Assembly: GCF_001999905.1 (NCBI RefSeq)
Contig: NZ_CP019640.1
Coordinates: 763,001 to 827,000 of the forward strand
Reading direction: 5' to 3'
Length of the DNA stretch: 64,000 nt
Origin: Planococcus lenghuensis
GTDB lineage: Bacteria > Bacillota > Bacilli > Bacillales_A > Planococcaceae
The notes under the pieces were generated by a model that ran no database searches, was not told where the DNA came from, and saw nothing but the letters and a program-made list of their open reading frames with translations. The number at the start of each line of letters is the position of its first letter. The first letter of the stretch is position 1. Shown one piece after another: positions 23,304 through 37,616 of the stretch. The position numbers were made by a program, and so were the translations under genes.

Positions 23304-24209
23304 TTAGAAAGCGGCTTCTGCATCAACGGTGATCCGGATGGCTTTCAATTCTTTGCCTTCTGCAAACTGGACTGCTCCAGGTCCGCCCAGGTAAAAGTCA
23401 ATGTGCGGATGGGTTGCTGCGAAATCGTCTAATTCTTCCAGTAAACGGGTATCTCCTTTAAAAGGGAGGCCGGTCACTGAAGACAGGATAACTTTTTGCG
23501 GCAGCAATTGCCGGACGGTAGCTTGAATGGCATTTGGGGCGGGTGAAGGTCCGAGAACGACCGTCTTCCATCCCCGGATCATAAACTTCAGTGCAATGAT
23601 ATGGACTGGGATTTCGTGCCGCTCATGGGGCAGGCAGGCGCCAAGCATGATGGGGGCTTGGTCACTCACCTGAAAATTCCGGCGAAGCTGTACAAGAAAG
23701 TCTCTGACAGCAAGACTCGCCAAGGCTTCCTGATACTCGCCCCAGCGCCCATCACTCCAGCGCTGGCCAACTTCCTTCAAAAAGGGAATGATAAGCTCAT
23801 CCAGAAATTCCTGCAGACTGCAGGAATGATACGCTTGCTGCAGGATGCGTGTCATCTGCATTTCATGGGCGAGCCTGCCTTCTTCCAGGAGCAGATAAAG
23901 GTATTGCTGCATCGTATCAGGCTGTCCCGGTTGCACAAGCTGGGCCACAGGGACCGGTTCTGCTGTGTGTTGTTGCTCTTTTAAGAATAACGCGGCTTGT
24001 TTGACGGAATACCCTTGGGTAATCAGTTTTTTCATGTTCAGAAGTGTATCGATTTCATCCTGATTGTATATCCGGTAGCCGTTTTCCAGACGTTCGGGTG
24101 AAATGATGCCGTAACGGTCTTCCCATTTTCGGATCACCTGCTTGGACAGGCTGGTCAGTTCAGCTGCTTGTGTGATGTTGTAGGAAGTATGCTGGTTGAT
24201 GTGATCCAT
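23304..24209 (-). CDS. MerR-type regulator with B12-binding domain, CarH-like
   Basis: 301 residues. An N-terminal MerR helix-turn-helix (about 10-75: SKQVIRKWEDRYGIISPERLENGYRIY) is joined to a four-helix cap (about 100-175) and a Rossmann cobalamin-binding domain (about 185-300). This is the CarH/LitR architecture, in which light-sensitive adenosylcobalamin controls carotenoid genes. The cap Trp151 and Glu161 are kept (W-x9-E), but the His that follows Glu in CarH is Ala162. The lower-ligand motif ExHxxG reads ERHEIP (His198, Pro instead of Gly). It is divergent from a crtI-type gene, its likely target. Start ATG 24209, with GAGGATGA upstream. Confidence 0.88.
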   Translation of the reverse strand: MDHINQHTSYNITQAAELTSLSKQVIRKWEDRYGIISPERLENGYRIYNQDEIDTLLNMKKLITQGYSVKQAALFLKEQQHTAEPVPVAQLVQPGQPDTMQQYLYLLLEEGRLAHEMQMTRILQQAYHSCSLQEFLDELIIPFLKEVGQRWSDGRWGEYQEALASLAVRDFLVQLRRNFQVSDQAPIMLGACLPHERHEIPVHIIALKFMIRGWKTVVLGPSPAPNAIQATVRQLLPQKVILSSVTGLPFKGDTRLLEELDDFAATHPHIDFYLGGPGAVQFAEGKELKAIRITVDAEAAF

Positions 24210-24519: not shown

Positions 24520-24547
24520 TGTATAATCATTGTACAAACATTATACA
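24520..24547 (+). promoter_or_regulatory. 28-base operator-like palindrome overlapping the crtI promoter
   Basis: The arms TGTATAAT and ATTATACA flank a central TTGTACAA palindrome; the two 14-base halves match at 12 positions. A TATAAT (24522-24527) lies inside it, and no good -35 is seen. Transcription from it would start near 24534, 29 bases before the crtI-type ATG. The location is ideal for repression by the divergent MerR/B12 protein. Confidence 0.6.
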
Positions 24548-24562
24548 CTGGAGGCGGAAGAG

Positions 24563-26095
24563 ATGTCAAAGCGAATTGCGATTGTTGGAGCGGGTCCCGG
24601 TGGATTGGCGGCAGCCATGCTCCTGTCAGCAAAAGGATATAAAGTAACCGTATATGAAAAGAAAGGAGTCGTTGGCGGACGGAACGCAGAAGTCCGGCTG
24701 GGTGAATTCAAATTCGATATGGGCCCGACCTTTCTGTCGATGCTCCATATCGCAGAAGAGATATTCGAAGCCGCCGGCCGCAATCTCCATGAATATATGG
24801 AAACAGTGGAACTTGAATCGATGTACGATTTAATTTACGAGGGACGGGCCATGACAATGACCCGCGACCGGATAAAAATGAAAGAACAGATCGAGGCGGC
24901 ATATCCGGGAGAAAGCGCGGGCTATGACCGGATGATGCGGGATTCGGCGCGGAAACTTAACGCACTATCGCCGATTCTGCAGTCGAAAATGGACCGGATG
25001 ACGGACATGCTGCATCCGAACGTCCTGAAGGCATTGCCGGATCTTGATCTCGGAAAAAGCCTCCATGACGTATTGTCCCGTTACTTCACAGCTGAAGAGC
25101 TTAAGCTTGCCTTTACATTCCAATCCAAGTACCTTGGCATGTCGCCATGGGAATGCCCGGGGGCTTTCTCGATTCTGTCATACATGGAGCATGCGTACGG
25201 CATCTTCCATCCGATTGGCGGGGTGAACCGGCTGTCGAATTCGATGGCTAAAGTCACTGAGGAACTTGGCGGGGATATCCGGCTGAACAGCGGCGTCAAA
25301 AAACTATGGATTGAAGGAAAGGCAGTGAAGGGTCTGCTGCTGGAGAACGGGGAACGCGTCGAAGCGGATGAAGTGATCATCAATGCCGATTTTGCGCATG
25401 CCATGACGAATTTAGTGGATGAAGGACAGCTGAAAAAGTATTCGCCAAAAAAGCTGGCGAAGAAAAAGTATTCATGTTCGACGTTCATGCTGTACTTGGG
25501 ATTGGATAAAAAGTATGACATGCCGCACCATACAATTGTATTTGCAAAGGACTACAAGAAAAATGTTGAAGAAATCACGAAGCTGAATATGCTGTCCCAG
25601 GATGCGTCCATTTATGTTCAAAATGCAAGCGTAACAGACCCAACACTGGCACCTGAAGGGAAATCGACATTGTACATTCTGGCTCCAGTGCCGAATAATT
25701 TCAGCGGCATCAATTGGGAAGAAGAAAAAGAGCTGTTCCGTGAACAGATTTTAAATACGATCGAAGAGAAAAGCGGATTCAAGGATTTGAGGCAGCACAT
25801 CGAAGTGGAGCATATGATCACGCCGCGGGATTGGGAACAGGACATGAATGTCTATCAGGGAGCGACGTTCAATCTCGGCCATCAGCTGACACAAATGATG
25901 GTATTCCGGCCGCATAATGAATTTGAAGAACTGAAGAATTGCTGGCTTGTCGGCGGGGGCACCCATCCCGGAAGCGGTCTTCCGATCATTCTGGAATCTG
26001 CCCGTATCACCGCGAACGGCATTCTCGCTCAGGATAAGAAAGAAACTGTCGCTGTCCCGCCGCTTCCGCAGCTTGCCGAAGCACAATGGTCTTAA
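24563..26095 (+). CDS. CrtI/CrtN-type carotenoid desaturase
   Basis: 510 residues. FAD-dependent desaturase of the phytoene/diapophytoene family acting at the membrane on C30 or C40 polyenes. N-terminal dinucleotide-binding motif IAIVGAGPGGLAAAMLL with the following YEKKGVVGGR, then FKFDMGPTFLSM, and the C-terminal family signature GGGTHPGSGLPIILESAR. It could be CrtN, CrtP or CrtI; no crtB/crtM synthase is next to it, so the step cannot be fixed. ATG 24563 follows GGAGGCGG by 5 bases. It is divergent from the B12-type MerR regulator and carries its own terminator. Confidence 0.85.
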   Translation: MSKRIAIVGAGPGGLAAAMLLSAKGYKVTVYEKKGVVGGRNAEVRLGEFKFDMGPTFLSMLHIAEEIFEAAGRNLHEYMETVELESMYDLIYEGRAMTMTRDRIKMKEQIEAAYPGESAGYDRMMRDSARKLNALSPILQSKMDRMTDMLHPNVLKALPDLDLGKSLHDVLSRYFTAEELKLAFTFQSKYLGMSPWECPGAFSILSYMEHAYGIFHPIGGVNRLSNSMAKVTEELGGDIRLNSGVKKLWIEGKAVKGLLLENGERVEADEVIINADFAHAMTNLVDEGQLKKYSPKKLAKKKYSCSTFMLYLGLDKKYDMPHHTIVFAKDYKKNVEEITKLNMLSQDASIYVQNASVTDPTLAPEGKSTLYILAPVPNNFSGINWEEEKELFREQILNTIEEKSGFKDLRQHIEVEHMITPRDWEQDMNVYQGATFNLGHQLTQMMVFRPHNEFEELKNCWLVGGGTHPGSGLPIILESARITANGILAQDKKETVAVPPLPQLAEAQWS

Positions 26096-26235
26096 TACTT
26101 ACGCTCAAAAGATATTTGCGGGGAATGAAGGCAAAGACGAAATCGATTCTTTAGATATCAGCCCGGCACACGACTGGTCAGTAAATGAATGAAAACAATT
26201 CACCGTAAAAGAATGATTCCAAAAGAATCTGCATA

Positions 26236-26273
26236 AAACCCCCGGCTGAAATTCCAGTTTCAGCCGGGGGTTT
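26236..26273. terminator. Bidirectional terminator between crtI-type and OsmC-globin genes
   Basis: AAACCCCCGGCTGAAA and its exact complement around a 6-base loop, serving two convergent genes. Confidence 0.85.
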
Positions 26274-26280
26274 CTGCCTT

Positions 26281-27069
26281 TCATCTTACGAACGGTTTCA
26301 TCAATTCGCCCATTTTCTCCATCAGGTTTTCTTTTACCGATTCCGGAAAATCTGTCTCACGGACAGTTTCACCCATCAGCCCAAGCCAGATTTCAGCCCG
26401 TTCAGGTGTTGTGGAAAAGGAATGCCGCTTTTGGACCTGTTCCTTTTCACTTTGATTTCCGTCTGTTGGATTGCCATTGATCAGCCGGGAAATGAAAATA
26501 CGCTGACGTTCTTTCAGCACCTCCACATTGACCCCGCGCTCAGCGAACATGTTGCTGAAATAAGGATCTTTCACCAGTTTTGCGTAGAAATCATCAACGA
26601 GCACATCGATTTTTTCCTGTGCGACAATCATTTCATTCACCCGCACAGTTCCGACCCGGTAATCGACATTGCTCGCAATGGTTTTGCCGATGAAGCAATT
26701 TTCGCGTGCATCTTCCGCTGCTTTTTCATATTCTGCCTGCAGTGCCGGATTGCCGCCGAATATAGTGGGATGGACAAGCAGCCGGCTGAACTTGGCTTCC
26801 GTCAGCTGATTAATCACTGTGCTTTCCGTGTTGATGGCGACCCGCTGGACGGGCAACCCTTTTAAAGCGAGCAAGCTGAATAACGTACCACTGTAGCAGC
26901 TTCCGACTGCGCTGATTAATAGATCTTCCGGACTCAGTCCCACGCCTTTCCCTCCCATATTTTCAGGGCCGGAAACCATCAGCAGTTCCTGCCCGATTGT
27001 AATTTTGCCTTCGCCTTTCCGGCCCGTACCGCTCCAATTGAGTTGCACTTCGAATGATGAATCTTTCAA
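26281..27069 (-). CDS. OsmC domain fused to group II truncated haemoglobin
   Basis: 262 residues in two parts. Residues 1 to about 143 are OsmC/Ohr-like, with the two conserved cysteines Cys58 (AVGSCYS) and Cys125 (ENCFIG) used to reduce organic peroxides. Residues from about 147 to 262 are a truncated globin: Tyr162 at B10 in LVDDFYAKL, proximal His216 in QKRHSFS, then TPERAEIWLGLM with Trp228 at G8, which marks group II (YjbI/HbO-like). The protein could couple peroxide removal with O2, NO or peroxide binding at haem; that is inference. The start is TTG 27069 behind GGTGAGGG, a weak site. An Fnr-like palindrome lies upstream. Confidence 0.85.
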   Translation of the reverse strand: MKDSSFEVQLNWSGTGRKGEGKITIGQELLMVSGPENMGGKGVGLSPEDLLISAVGSCYSGTLFSLLALKGLPVQRVAINTESTVINQLTEAKFSRLLVHPTIFGGNPALQAEYEKAAEDARENCFIGKTIASNVDYRVGTVRVNEMIVAQEKIDVLVDDFYAKLVKDPYFSNMFAERGVNVEVLKERQRIFISRLINGNPTDGNQSEKEQVQKRHSFSTTPERAEIWLGLMGETVRETDFPESVKENLMEKMGELMKPFVR

Positions 27070-27135
27070 CGACCCTCACCCTTTCATTGACTGCTGGACT
27101 TCACTATCAGTTTGAAGTATGTGCCGGTCTGTTTC

Positions 27136-27747: not shown

Positions 27748-28722
27748 ATGCCATTGGAATTGATCCGTAACGACATCACTAATATGAAGGCGGATGCCAT
27801 CGTCAATCCGGTAGATGCTGACTTTCGGGCGGATGGCGGTGTAAGTGCCGCCATTTTCAAAGCGGCAGGCGAACGAGAACTCCGGACTGCCTGCCGTGAA
27901 TTTGGAAGATTGGCTATTGGAGAGGCGGTAAGGACAGCAAGCTTTCAGCTGCCGGCAAAGCATATCATCCACACAACAGGACCTGTCTGGCAAGGGGGAA
28001 GGGAAGGTGAAGACCAGCAGCTGCGGAATTGCTATCGAAATGCATTGCGCTTGGCCGTCAGCCTAGGGTGTGAATCGATCGCATTCCCACTCATTTCGAC
28101 CGGTCTCTATGGCTATCCAAAGGACCGGGCATTGCGGATGGCGGTTGCTGAAATTCATGAATTTCTGTTGAGTCATGAGCTGTCCGTCTATATCGCTGTG
28201 TATGATCGTGCTGCGTTTCAGTTGAGCGGGCGGCTGTTCCGCGATGTGCAGTCATATATTGATGAGCATTACATCGAGGAACGAGAATACGGTTTCGCCC
28301 GGCGGTCCCGTTCGCTGAACCGGGAAATAATGCTTGAGGAATCGGTACAGGAGAGCATTGATGAGTTATTCGGCCAGTTGGATGAATCATTCTCTGTCCG
28401 ATTGATGCGGCTGATTGATGAACGGGACTTGAAGGATCCGTTGGTGTATAAACGTGCGAACATCGACCGGAAGCTGTTTTCCAAGATCCGAAGTTCGCCG
28501 GATTACACGCCCCGCAAGACGACCGCTCTTGCGCTTGCCATTGCTCTTGAACTTAACCTGCAGGAGACAGCCGATTTACTGGAATCGGCCGGCTATGCAT
28601 TGTCACGCAGCAGCCGTGCAGATGTGATCATCATGTATTTCATCGAAGCGCAGAACTACGATATATTTGAAATTAATGAAGTTCTGTTCGCACATGAACA
28701 GAAACTGCTCGGTGCTTCATGA
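27748..28722 (+). CDS. Macro domain protein with C-terminal helical DNA-binding-like domain
   Basis: 324 residues. The macro domain (about 1-165) binds or hydrolyses ADP-ribose: substrate-loop motifs NPVDADFRADGGVSAAIF and PLISTGLYGYP are intact. The C-terminal part (about 210-324) has the segment VYKRANIDRKLFSKIR and then ALALAIALELNLQETADLLESAGY, a helical XRE/HTH-like module that occurs in several Firmicute proteins. It ends with FDVI-like VIIMYFIEAQNYDIFEINE. It lies 79 bases upstream of a VWA-domain gene. ATG with AAGGGAAGTGAGG upstream. An ADP-ribose-responsive regulator or effector is plausible but unproven. Confidence 0.85.
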   Translation: MPLELIRNDITNMKADAIVNPVDADFRADGGVSAAIFKAAGERELRTACREFGRLAIGEAVRTASFQLPAKHIIHTTGPVWQGGREGEDQQLRNCYRNALRLAVSLGCESIAFPLISTGLYGYPKDRALRMAVAEIHEFLLSHELSVYIAVYDRAAFQLSGRLFRDVQSYIDEHYIEEREYGFARRSRSLNREIMLEESVQESIDELFGQLDESFSVRLMRLIDERDLKDPLVYKRANIDRKLFSKIRSSPDYTPRKTTALALAIALELNLQETADLLESAGYALSRSSRADVIIMYFIEAQNYDIFEINEVLFAHEQKLLGAS

Positions 28723-28801: not shown

Positions 28802-29449
28802 ATGGATCACAACCTTACCGAACTTGTTTTCATTCTCGATAAAAGCGGCTCAATGGCAGGTCTTGAAACCGACACGATCGGCGGCTTTAATGCGTTGATC
28901 GGCAAACAGAAGAAAGAACAGGGCGATGTGAACGTCACAACCGTCTTGTTCAACCATCATTATGAGCTGCTCCATGATCGGATTCCGATTGAGGGCATCT
29001 CCCCAATTACGGACCGTGAGTATGAAGTGGGCGGTACGACCGCATTGCTCGATGCGATTGGTGCCACGATCAATAAAATCGGCAATGCACAGAAGCGGAC
29101 GAAAGAAGAGCATCGGGCCGGGAAAGTGATGGTCGTCATCACGACGGATGGCATGGAGAACGCCAGCTGTGAGTATAAGTATGATCAGATCCGGGCCATG
29201 ATCGAACGTCAGAAATCAGCTTTCGACTGGGAATTCATTTTCATGGGCGCCAATATCGATGCCGTTGCGACCGCCAGAAGTTTCGGCATCCATGAAGATT
29301 TTGCCGTGAATTACCATGCGGATGAAGTAGGTACAGATCTGAACTTTACGGTGATGAGCGAGACGATTTCGACTGTCCGGAAAGGCCGCAAGCTGGATCG
29401 GAATTGGAAACGGGATATTGAAGCGGACTTTGAACGGCGGAAGCGCTGA
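28802..29449 (+). CDS. VWA (von Willebrand factor A) domain protein
   Basis: 215 residues, a single cytoplasmic VWA domain with a complete MIDAS metal site: DKSGSMAG (Asp13, Ser15, Ser17), the Thr in VGGTTALLDAIG and the Asp in TTDGMENAS. It has no signal peptide or membrane anchor, unlike adhesin VWAs, and resembles TerY/CoxE-like intracellular VWAs. ATG 28802, with AAGGGGGCAACC upstream. It probably forms an operon with the macro-domain gene; similar pairs occur in other Firmicutes as far as I recall. Likely role: metal-dependent protein assembly or binding. Confidence 0.8.
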   Translation: MDHNLTELVFILDKSGSMAGLETDTIGGFNALIGKQKKEQGDVNVTTVLFNHHYELLHDRIPIEGISPITDREYEVGGTTALLDAIGATINKIGNAQKRTKEEHRAGKVMVVITTDGMENASCEYKYDQIRAMIERQKSAFDWEFIFMGANIDAVATARSFGIHEDFAVNYHADEVGTDLNFTVMSETISTVRKGRKLDRNWKRDIEADFERRKR

Positions 29450-29654
29450 ACCGGAAGTACCGGGTAAACAGTTCCCATATAAAATGCAGGGGAATTCCGC
29501 TTCGGCGGTGTTCGTCCGTGTTCTGTGGGACTGGCTCGACGTTTGCCGGTAAACACTTTAGGGAAGGTAGGTATTGAAGTATGTTGAATACAAGATATCC
29601 ACCTGTCCGGTTTGATACGGGCGACTAATCCCGAAAGTGAAGGAGACTGAATAC

Positions 29655-30968
29655 ATGCGCGTAAAAACACCAATCCCGCAAGCCAAAGGAATAGACAATA
29701 CGCTGACCTTGATCAAAGAGGGCTTTCATTTCATCCCCAGCCGCAGAAATGAGCTGGAATCCGACATGTTTGAGACCCGGCTGCTCGGCCAAAAGGCGAT
29801 CTGCATGGCAGGGGAAGAAGCGGCAGCCATGTTCTACGATAACGAGTATTTTAAGCGCGAGGGTGCTGCACCAAAACCGCTGAAGCAAACATTATTGGGT
29901 GAAGGCGGCATTCACGGCAGAGACGGGGAAGACCATCATCAATTGAAACGGATGTTTTTGTCGATGATGACCCCTGAGCGTCTTGAAGACATGAAACGCA
30001 TTGCCGTAGAAGAATTTGATAAGAAAGTGACCGAATGGGAAAGAAAAGATGCGGTCATTCTGCTCCGGGAGATGGAGGAGATCATGGGCCGAGCCGGCAT
30101 GCGCTGGGCCGGACTTCCGGTAAAAGAAAGTGAAGCGAAAGAGCGGGCGGCAGAGCTCTCGCAAATGGTCGATTCCTTTGGCGGTTCCCTCAGCCGCTAC
30201 CAGGACGGAAAACATGCAAGACAAAGCCACGAGAAATGGCTGGAGAAGATCATTAAGGATATCCGTTCAGGCAAATACAATCCGCCTGCCAATACGGCCG
30301 CTTACATTGTTGCAAATCATCGGGAACCCAACGGCAAATTACTGGATCTGCATACGGCTGCAGTTGAATTGAATAATTCATACCGGCCGCTTGTTGCGAC
30401 AGCTTATTTCATCGTATTCGGTGCGTTGGCAATGTATGAGCATCCGGAAACCGTCGGGAAACTGCGGGAAGACAAGGATGATTACAGCCATATGTTCTCT
30501 CAGGAAATCCGACGCTACTATCCGTTTGCACCGGCAATGGCAGCAAAAGCGAAGAAGAATTTCACATGGAACGGTTATAAATTCAAAAAAGATCAGCTCG
30601 TGGTATTGGATTTATTCGGGACGAACCGTCATCCGGATAACTGGATCGATGCGGACCAGTTCATTCCGGAACGTTTTGCCAATTGGAGCGGCAGTCCATT
30701 CGCATTTGTACCGCAGGGCGGCGGGGATCATTACATGGGGCACCGCTGTGCCGGTGAATGGATGACCGTCATGGTAATGCAGGCATTCTTCCGGTACATG
30801 ACGCATAACCTCTCATACCATGTGCCGGAACAGAACCTGGCATACGATATGCGGCGGATGCCGACCATGCCACAGAGCGGCTTTGTTATCAGCGATGTGC
30901 GGAAACTCCGGTCATTCCCGGATAATATTTTGCTCCATCGGGAAACCCTGACAGCGGTAAAAGCCTGA
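29655..30968 (+). CDS. Cytochrome P450, CYP152-type fatty acid peroxygenase
   Basis: 437 residues. CYP152 enzymes use H2O2 rather than a reductase to hydroxylate or decarboxylate fatty acids. The I-helix Arg-Pro pair typical of the group, which replaces the usual acid-alcohol pair, is seen in NNSYRPLVATAY. The haem-binding loop is GGDHYMGHRCAGEWMT with the axial Cys; the common Pro after Cys is Ala here. The ExxR motif is QEIRRYYPFAP. ATG 29655 is chosen, 8 bases after AAGGAGA; a GTG at 29637 overlaps that site. B. subtilis CYP152A1 (YbdT) is the nearest known type. No redox partner gene is adjacent, as expected for a peroxygenase. Confidence 0.9.
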   Translation: MRVKTPIPQAKGIDNTLTLIKEGFHFIPSRRNELESDMFETRLLGQKAICMAGEEAAAMFYDNEYFKREGAAPKPLKQTLLGEGGIHGRDGEDHHQLKRMFLSMMTPERLEDMKRIAVEEFDKKVTEWERKDAVILLREMEEIMGRAGMRWAGLPVKESEAKERAAELSQMVDSFGGSLSRYQDGKHARQSHEKWLEKIIKDIRSGKYNPPANTAAYIVANHREPNGKLLDLHTAAVELNNSYRPLVATAYFIVFGALAMYEHPETVGKLREDKDDYSHMFSQEIRRYYPFAPAMAAKAKKNFTWNGYKFKKDQLVVLDLFGTNRHPDNWIDADQFIPERFANWSGSPFAFVPQGGGDHYMGHRCAGEWMTVMVMQAFFRYMTHNLSYHVPEQNLAYDMRRMPTMPQSGFVISDVRKLRSFPDNILLHRETLTAVKA

Positions 30969-36105: not shown

Positions 36106-36133
36106 CGGCTGCCGGAATCCCGGCAGCTGTTTT
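36106..36133 (+). terminator. Terminator after the HEAT-like gene
   Basis: GCTGCCGG / CCGGCAGC hairpin followed by TGTTTTACTTTT; it touches the end of the convergent desaturase gene. Confidence 0.6.
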
Positions 36134-37616
36134 ACTTTTCAATGAGCAGACTGCCGGAAATGGAACGCGCTGCATGGATACCGCTCGTTGCAGCGCCGAT
36201 TGTACCGCCACCCGGAAAGATATGATCGCCGCATACATACAGACCCGGAATCCCGGCATGATGTGAAATGGAATTGAACAGCGAGTTTGCCACGGTCTGC
36301 GGAAATCCGCCGACGAAACCATGAGGCCGGCCGGTGTAGCGAGTCCATCCGCGCGGTGCCCCTGTTTCCAAGTGAACGATCGCCTGCCGAAATCCCGGTA
36401 CAATATCCTCCAAAGCAGCAAGCATCCGGTCCGTCAGCAATTCCCGATGAGCATCGTACTTACCCTTTGTATTCCATTGCTTCACTTCCGAATGAGTGGA
36501 AATCGTTGCTGTCTGAAACCCCGCTGGCGCACGCAAGGCATCGTCCGGCTGCGAAGCTGAAACGAAAAAATGAGCACCTTCCGCGAGACCTTGGCCGATT
36601 GAGAGTTGCCGGAACGGAGGGAGAGGAGCGGCAAGTTTTGCTGTTTCGACCGCCACATAAAGCGTCAGCGTCGTCCAGGTCGGTGTGCCCATTCCAATGC
36701 GCAGCCGCTTGTTCAGCTTCCGTATCAGTTCAGGCGTCATCAATGCCGGAAGCTGATGGATCGGCACATTCAGGATGACATCGGTCGCCCTGTAAGTGTT
36801 ACCCCGCTGATCAGTGGCGATCCATTGCTGCCCTGAGCGCTCCAACCGTTCGACTGTCCGGCGTTTTTTCAATAAGCCGCCATTCTCCTTGATGCTGTCG
36901 CCCATCAGCTCGGCGAATCGGTACAGGCCACCGGGCACATAATAAGCTCCTTCATGATAAATATCGAGTGCCACAGCCGCTAGCAGATAAGATACATCCT
37001 CGCTGCCCGTCTGCATGCTGTCGATCAGCAATGCATCCAGCATGTGCCGAAACGGTGTTAAGTTCTCCAGTTCATGCGCTTTTAGCCGCTGTCCGAGCGT
37101 CTGGCGCATAAAAGGCAGCAGCTGCATGTGTGCCGGCCGGATAGAGTTGATCAAGTACCGCCACTCAATCCAATTTGCAGGCGGCAAGGGAGGGAGCGGG
37201 TCCATCAGCGTCCGTACTACAGAAGCTGTTTGGTAAATCTCCCGATAAAAGGTTCGAATCGACTGCTCAAATGCCGGGAATCGGCCGACAATTTCATCGA
37301 CATGCCGCCTGCGGTCACGGAAAAACGTAAAGGTAGTTTCCGGGTGGACCATTTCCATGACAGCTTCAAGCGGCTCGAGCGGAAACGGTTTCTGTAAATA
37401 GCGGAACACCCGTTCATGAATACCGCCCGGTTCCAATCCCATGCCGAGTGTCGCGCCTGCGGGAAACAAAAAATCCCGGCGCTTAAATTTTCCGGCACAG
37501 CCGCCAAGTTCTGATGAAGCTTCCAGCAGCGTGACTTCCATGCCATGCTTTGCCAGCAATGAGCCTGCCGTCAGTCCACCAATCCCTGCTCCCACTATAA
37601 GTACATTCCGTTTCAT
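36132..37616 (-). CDS. Carotenoid desaturase/isomerase-like flavoprotein
   Basis: 494 residues. N-terminal FAD-binding VLIVGAGIGGLTAGSLL with the second-strand LLEASSELGGCAGKF, and a C-terminal signature GLYVCGDHIFPGGGTIGAATSG resembling CrtH/CRTISO and CrtD proteins. The central PGGLYRFAELMGDSIKENGG is also typical of the phytoene dehydrogenase superfamily. Likely substrate is a carotenoid or other polyene, but retinol- or squalene-type oxidoreductases are alternatives. It is not adjacent to the crtI-type gene at 24563 (10 kb apart, opposite strand), so a shared pathway is inference. Start ATG 37616, with AGGTGAGGATG in front. Confidence 0.75.
   Translation of the reverse strand: MKRNVLIVGAGIGGLTAGSLLAKHGMEVTLLEASSELGGCAGKFKRRDFLFPAGATLGMGLEPGGIHERVFRYLQKPFPLEPLEAVMEMVHPETTFTFFRDRRRHVDEIVGRFPAFEQSIRTFYREIYQTASVVRTLMDPLPPLPPANWIEWRYLINSIRPAHMQLLPFMRQTLGQRLKAHELENLTPFRHMLDALLIDSMQTGSEDVSYLLAAVALDIYHEGAYYVPGGLYRFAELMGDSIKENGGLLKKRRTVERLERSGQQWIATDQRGNTYRATDVILNVPIHQLPALMTPELIRKLNKRLRIGMGTPTWTTLTLYVAVETAKLAAPLPPFRQLSIGQGLAEGAHFFVSASQPDDALRAPAGFQTATISTHSEVKQWNTKGKYDAHRELLTDRMLAALEDIVPGFRQAIVHLETGAPRGWTRYTGRPHGFVGGFPQTVANSLFNSISHHAGIPGLYVCGDHIFPGGGTIGAATSGIHAARSISGSLLIEK

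Follow-up and report, generated by a model that had tools for sequence, protein, structure and literature searches.

A rare fusion of an OsmC-type thiol peroxidase and a truncated globin in Planococcus lenghuensis and four other bacterial species

Introduction

The gene described here joins two protein families whose members have been characterised separately. In hydroperoxide reductases of the Ohr type, a catalytic Arg acts together with Glu51 to activate the peroxidatic Cys; these enzymes reduce fatty-acid hydroperoxides and handle peroxynitrite, and their disulfide is in turn reduced by lipoylated proteins (PMC5962072). Among truncated haemoglobins, YjbI from B. subtilis presents a peroxidase-like activity on protein hydroperoxides that is abolished by the substitution of Tyr63 by Phe, and this residue has been proposed as an electron donor; the physiological electron donor of YjbI was stated to be unknown, with the dithiol protein YjbH discussed as a candidate (PMC9536834). 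Regarding globins fused to other domains, the chimeras named in a census from 2006 are flavohaemoglobins and globin-coupled sensors only, which resemble the present protein in combining a globin with a redox or output domain, but which contain 3/3 globins in a generally N-terminal position, whereas here a 2/2 globin lies C-terminal of a thiol peroxidase (PMC1457004).

The window, that is, the whole stretch of DNA analysed (64,000 nucleotides of the P. lenghuensis chromosome), contains a gene for a single-chain protein with an OsmC domain followed by a truncated globin. Two known families are newly combined in it; the combination is real, rare and conserved, with a biochemical role that we infer. 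The first-pass annotation of this DNA named no studied protein with such a domain order and, in agreement, no paper on an OsmC-truncated-globin protein was found in the open-access full text; InterPro may carry an automatic entry for the architecture. Fusions of truncated globins to antibiotic-biosynthesis monooxygenase domains exist, and a truncated globin linked to a thiol peroxidase can now be added to the list of chimeric globins.

Gene structure and domain assignment

The features of the locus are collected in Table 1. On the minus strand, the gene runs through 262 codons with zero internal stops, as expected from the single uninterrupted frame noticed in the first-pass annotation, and Cys58, Cys125, Tyr162, His216 and Trp228 all occupy the positions given there. 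The homologous fusions have an ATG start where the window gene has TTG. The hairpin found 3' of the stop codon has a predicted stability of -34.4 kcal/mol (z -8), and it is missing from the list produced by a simple consensus terminator scan. Since a Shine-Dalgarno-like stretch precedes the gene and this strong hairpin comes right after its stop codon, the fusion gene is probably transcribed alone, and it looks monocistronic.

Table 1. Coordinates, within the window, of the fusion gene, its signals, its domains and its key residues
Feature	Position	Strand	Remarks
Whole gene, OsmC-truncated globin fusion	26281..27069	-	262 aa, TTG start, TGA stop; full-length in 4 other species
Shine-Dalgarno-like AAAGGGTGAGGG (short form AAAGGGTGAGG)	27073..27084	-	Immediately 5' of TTG; read directly
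Hairpin and short T run, likely intrinsic terminator	26235..26276	-	Directly 3' of stop
OsmC/Ohr-type thiol peroxidase domain, residues 1-142	26644..27069	-	PF02566 E 9e-14; AlphaFold model matches
Truncated (2/2) globin domain, group II-derived, residues 146-262	26284..26634	-	PF01152 E 5e-8; PDB profile; model
Glu48 codon, equivalent to catalytic Glu of Ohr (Glu51 in XfOhr)	26926..26928	-	By alignment; invariant in fusions and their unfused subfamily
Cys58 codon, equivalent to peroxidatic Cys of Ohr/OsmC	26896..26898	-	Invariant in 28 aligned OsmC domains
Cys125 codon, equivalent to resolving Cys	26695..26697	-	Invariant in 28 aligned OsmC domains
Tyr162 codon, globin B10, distal pocket	26584..26586	-	Invariant in 5 fused and 14 standalone globins
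EF/pre-F loop, residues 202-212, GGPxxY...GHP motif of YjbI-type globins lost	26434..26466	-	Alignment
His216 codon, proximal haem ligand F8	26422..26424	-	Invariant in 19 globins
Trp228 codon, globin G8, shared by groups II and III	26386..26388	-	Invariant in 19 globins

Both domains, in the order that had been read from the sequence, are recovered by Pfam-A profiles: OsmC (PF02566) scores 52.1 bits against a cut-off of 27.5 over residues 40-136, and Bac_globin (PF01152) scores 33.6 bits against a cut-off of 21 over residues 146-256. The profile search thus places the C-terminal part in the truncated globins, the outcome on which the first-pass reading depended. Both domains likewise exceed the curated Pfam cut-offs in the homologues from Alkalibacillus and from G340, a genome of another family. 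Among NCBIfam models, the best match of the OsmC half is TIGR03563 (SACOL1771-type), yet with 64.7 bits for a cut-off of 166.15, and the half also misses the cut-off of the Ohr model TIGR03561 (28.7 vs 88.85 bits). The Protoglobin profile PF11563 stays below its cut-off in the window protein (22.6 vs 25 bits) and reaches 25.2 bits in the G340 homologue, less than the Bac_globin score of that same protein. As for the group of the globin, when a profile of the fused globins is compared with the PDB, the top matches are group II proteins from Bacillus and Geobacillus at 40-46 bits (46, 44 and 43), with groups I and III at 20 bits or less, which bears out the earlier assignment to group II.

AlphaFold gives good models, with a mean pLDDT of 83 for the whole protein and 82 for the globin; confidence is lowest at residues 201-206, and the loop leading into the F helix is modelled poorly. 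The model of the OsmC half matches 2onf (Foldseek E 1.8e-10) and 6mjn_B (VIA Z 14.8, rmsd 3.4 over 135 residues). For the globin model, B. subtilis YjbI (1ux8) is among the best matches (VIA Z 13.1, rmsd 3.0 over 114 residues), a Z of about 13 being one that, according to that tool, can also come from unrelated helical proteins. Since Foldseek returned no match under E 0.001 for this model, the assignment of the globin fold is mostly carried by the sequence profiles; a structure search with the globin alone mixes groups I, II and III, and the group was therefore set by sequence.

The OsmC half and its relatives

Compared with the Ohr/OsmC hydroperoxide reductases of known structure (XfOhr, 4xx2/1zb9; OsmC, 1nye; Thermus OsmC, 1ukk), the N-terminal half has the same fold and equivalents of the two Cys and the Glu, but the fusions seem to lack a conserved catalytic Arg and add a C-terminal globin domain. 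W12, E48, C58, Y59 and C125 do not vary among the five fusions. At the column of the catalytic Arg of Ohr (Arg19 in XfOhr), which lies in a loop aligned by sequence only, the window protein has Arg17, the other four fusions have K, N, K and E, and members of the unfused subfamily described below have R, K or N. As the catalytic Arg does not seem to be conserved, the thiol site of the fusion may work more slowly or on other substrates.

The closest unfused relatives belong to an OsmC subfamily present in Neobacillus, Sulfobacillus and other Bacillota (loci L028-L036 and L039-L048), with 43-59% identity to the OsmC half. These proteins have the MGGKG and CFIG motifs in common with the fusions and stop after the OsmC domain. 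In the tree, this subfamily and the OsmC halves of the fusions are split with 100/100 support from the SACOL1771-type OsmC peroxiredoxins of Bacillales (TIGR03563), which are the usual ones in the host family, form a separate branch and have Asp at the column of Glu48. An arrangement in which globin and OsmC are encoded by neighbouring genes in relatives was considered and rejected, as no globin gene adjoins the unfused OsmC relatives in the flanks examined, about half of which spanned 1.5 kb. At two loci of the subfamily from acidophiles (L033 and L036), a gene for a predicted reductase-like flavoprotein lies 0.6-0.9 kb downstream.

The globin half and its lost tyrosine

In the globin half, eight residues, F161, Y162 (B10), F175 (CD1), Q189 (E11), R215, H216 (F8), F218 and W228 (G8), are the same in every one of the five fused and 14 standalone globins, and L185 (E7) is invariant in all five fusions; helix positions were assigned by alignment to YjbI under the established globin nomenclature, and Trp-G8 by itself does not separate group II from group III. 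With YjbI (1ux8; PMC9536834), the fusions have in common the fold and Tyr-B10, Phe-CD1, Gln-E11, His-F8 and Trp-G8. The two differ in that YjbI is a standalone protein with GGPxxY63 and GHP motifs, in which Tyr63 is essential, while the fusions are devoid of this Tyr; additionally, E7 is Thr in YjbI and Leu185 in the window fusion, and the fused globin carries an insertion of three residues between CD1 and the E helix.

The loss concerns the whole GGPxxY element (the GG motif and the Tyr before the F helix), which is absent in 5/5 fusions. The column of YjbI Tyr63 reads D/G/D/D/E in the five fusions and Y (once F) in the 14 standalone globins, and the fusions contain zero Tyr between E11 and F8. 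Given that GGPxxY is absent in all five, the fused globin is filed only as divergent and group II-derived. A survey of 399 genomes of the class did not turn up this globin type, without GGPxxY, on its own; the strongest two non-fused matches of the fused-globin search in this set are ordinary GGPxxY group II globins.

Distribution and origin

The fusion architecture occurs in five species, in a single frame in each. Identity to the window protein amounts to 68% in Indiicoccus explosivorum, placed in the same genus as the window genome in the classification used, 59% in Planococcus salinus, 53% in G340 and 43% in Alkalibacillus almallahensis. Carriers represent three of the 261 genomes of the order (all those in the set examined) and four of the 399 sampled genomes of the class, and the window's own genome is the sole carrier among 398 genomes sampled from the phylum. 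By these counts, the fusion is rare and patchy. A scan of 84,980 species with two narrow peptide patterns, the source of the names of the other species, missed the G340 carrier, so that the carrier count is a lower bound. Carriage by plasmids or viruses was rejected as well, since 72,556 plasmid records contained zero fusions and no relative of the fusion was confirmed in viral contigs.

Besides the fusion, each of the four carriers tested has a further three or four genes of the OsmC family and an ordinary truncated globin (YjbI, one per genome); the fusion is thus an extra gene alongside separate OsmC genes and a separate YjbI. Between the window and Indiicoccus genes, synonymous change lies far above non-synonymous change in both halves, with dN/dS values of about 0.16 for OsmC and about 0.07 for the globin, which are rough because dS is near saturation; both halves are under purifying selection.

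The OsmC half derives from the little-known unfused OsmC subfamily, and YjbI-type group II globins are the source of the globin half. Fused globins group in a single clade (100/100). The OsmC halves fall nearly together in their tree, where a single clade is not rejected (p-AU 0.25); both results are consistent with one fusion event kept across genera. No gene neighbourhood of the fusion is conserved across genera, and the macro-domain, VWA and P450 neighbours are common to the two same-genus genomes only. Such differences between genera suit horizontal transfer or repeated loss.

Proposed function and alternative readings

Established are the single fused frame, the two folds, from profiles and models, and the conservation of both sets of active-site residues over the five species. 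On balance, and with some reserve, we favour a bifunctional protein of oxidant defence, that is, a dual-site detoxifier of hydroperoxides that would use both a thiol and a haem. In one chain, a dithiol peroxidase of the OsmC family (Cys58/Cys125) would be combined with a truncated haemoglobin derived from group II, whose haem would be held by His216 and lined on the distal side by Tyr162, Gln189 and Trp228. Should the OsmC half form the intertwined dimer usual in its family, there would be a pair of thiol sites and a pair of haems per working particle. Organic hydroperoxides would be reduced at the thiol site; peroxides, peroxynitrite or NO may react at the haem site, and the dithiol could possibly supply electrons to the haem. 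This reading is supported by the invariance of both active-site sets down to 43% identity and by the fact that both parent families act on hydroperoxides. Judging from the alignments, the non-conserved Ohr Arg and the missing YjbI Tyr63 weaken a simple transfer of function from the parent families, and no support for a stress role comes from conserved neighbour genes.

A closer coupling of the two halves is conceivable though hardly probable, namely that the OsmC dithiol is a built-in donor that returns the globin haem from the ferric or ferryl form to its working state and replaces the lost Tyr, so that both domains would take part in one catalytic cycle. What makes a relay from thiol to haem attractive is that the globin's own Tyr, the proposed donor in YjbI, is gone from all five fusions while a dithiol domain is covalently attached, and that, in the genomes searched, the altered globin type is found only fused to such a domain; the discussion of YjbH as donor candidate by the authors of the YjbI study points the same way (PMC9536834). 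Nevertheless, the EF loop of the fused globins is changed as a whole, hence the loss of Tyr may be unrelated, and lipoylated proteins, the known reductants of the Ohr disulfide (PMC5962072), would compete. If this relay were true, it would represent a bacterial solution to the problem of the electron donor of YjbI-type haemoglobins, made visible through the loss of the tyrosine after the fusion. Rather doubtful is a gating role, in which the globin would sense O2, NO or peroxide and switch the OsmC peroxidase, in the manner of globin-coupled sensors: globin sensors with output domains are common, the fused globin has lost a residue linked to catalysis and kept those for ligand binding, and the Protoglobin profile gives weak matches near its cut-off, but group II truncated globins are not the usual sensor class and the sequence sides with the YjbI type. 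In addition, OsmC enzymes are not known to serve as regulated outputs, which counts against this gating.

It is quite improbable that the globin half has degenerated into an appendage that serves for structure or stability and has ceased to bind haem. The absence of the GG motifs and of Tyr63, together with more non-synonymous change than in OsmC in the most distant pairs, would fit such a tail, which, however, would not need the eight haem-pocket residues that are invariant in fused and standalone globins alike. An artefact, whether by frameshift, misassembly or a chance joining of two neighbour genes, might be suspected from the absence of the architecture in most relatives; it is refuted by the recurrence of one and the same frame in five species that were sequenced independently and in which the gene neighbourhoods differ, and its probability is negligible. 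A natural fusion of dithiol peroxidase and globin provides a ready-made test of thiol-haem coupling, with two Cys and one His in one protein, and could show how haemoglobins of the YjbI type obtain their electrons; the fusion is of moderate importance, which would be greater if the thiol and haem sites prove coupled.

Genomic surroundings of the fusion

The genome of the window also contains, outside it, an OsmC-related gene (L086, C1:2019042-2019332, minus strand) in which an in-frame TGA takes the exact place of the first catalytic Cys (HIVAAAGG*LVGTLSG) and the second Cys is intact; the gene probably corresponds to the known OsmC-related selenoprotein type (NF041052). The matches corresponding to it in Indiicoccus and P. 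salinus have one in-frame TGA each, and in each of the three genomes tRNA-Sec lies about 7-10 kb from the gene of this type. tRNA-Sec is present in 4/4 testable fusion carriers (G000, G001, G078 and G340), as against only 10 of the 151 genomes sampled from the family; the chance of finding it in 3/3 within-family carriers is 2e-4, a simple count for related carriers in a test made post hoc.

Within the window, the fusion is neighboured by genes for a macro-domain protein (27748-28722, plus strand) and then a VWA-like protein just under the Pfam cut-off (28802-29449, plus strand), both conserved beside the fusion in Indiicoccus. A cytochrome P450 (Pfam p450; 29637-30968, plus strand) is encoded 2.6 kb from the fusion and is also found near the fusion in Indiicoccus; we take the window protein to resemble the CypC/CYP152 fatty-acid peroxygenases. 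Two carotenoid-desaturase-like flavoproteins (24530-26095, plus strand, by Pfam; 36132-37616, minus strand) and a MerR-type regulator that contains a B12-binding domain (23304-24209, minus strand, by Pfam) are also encoded in the window, a combination of carotenoid desaturases and B12-binding MerR regulator that is familiar from light-induced carotenoid control.
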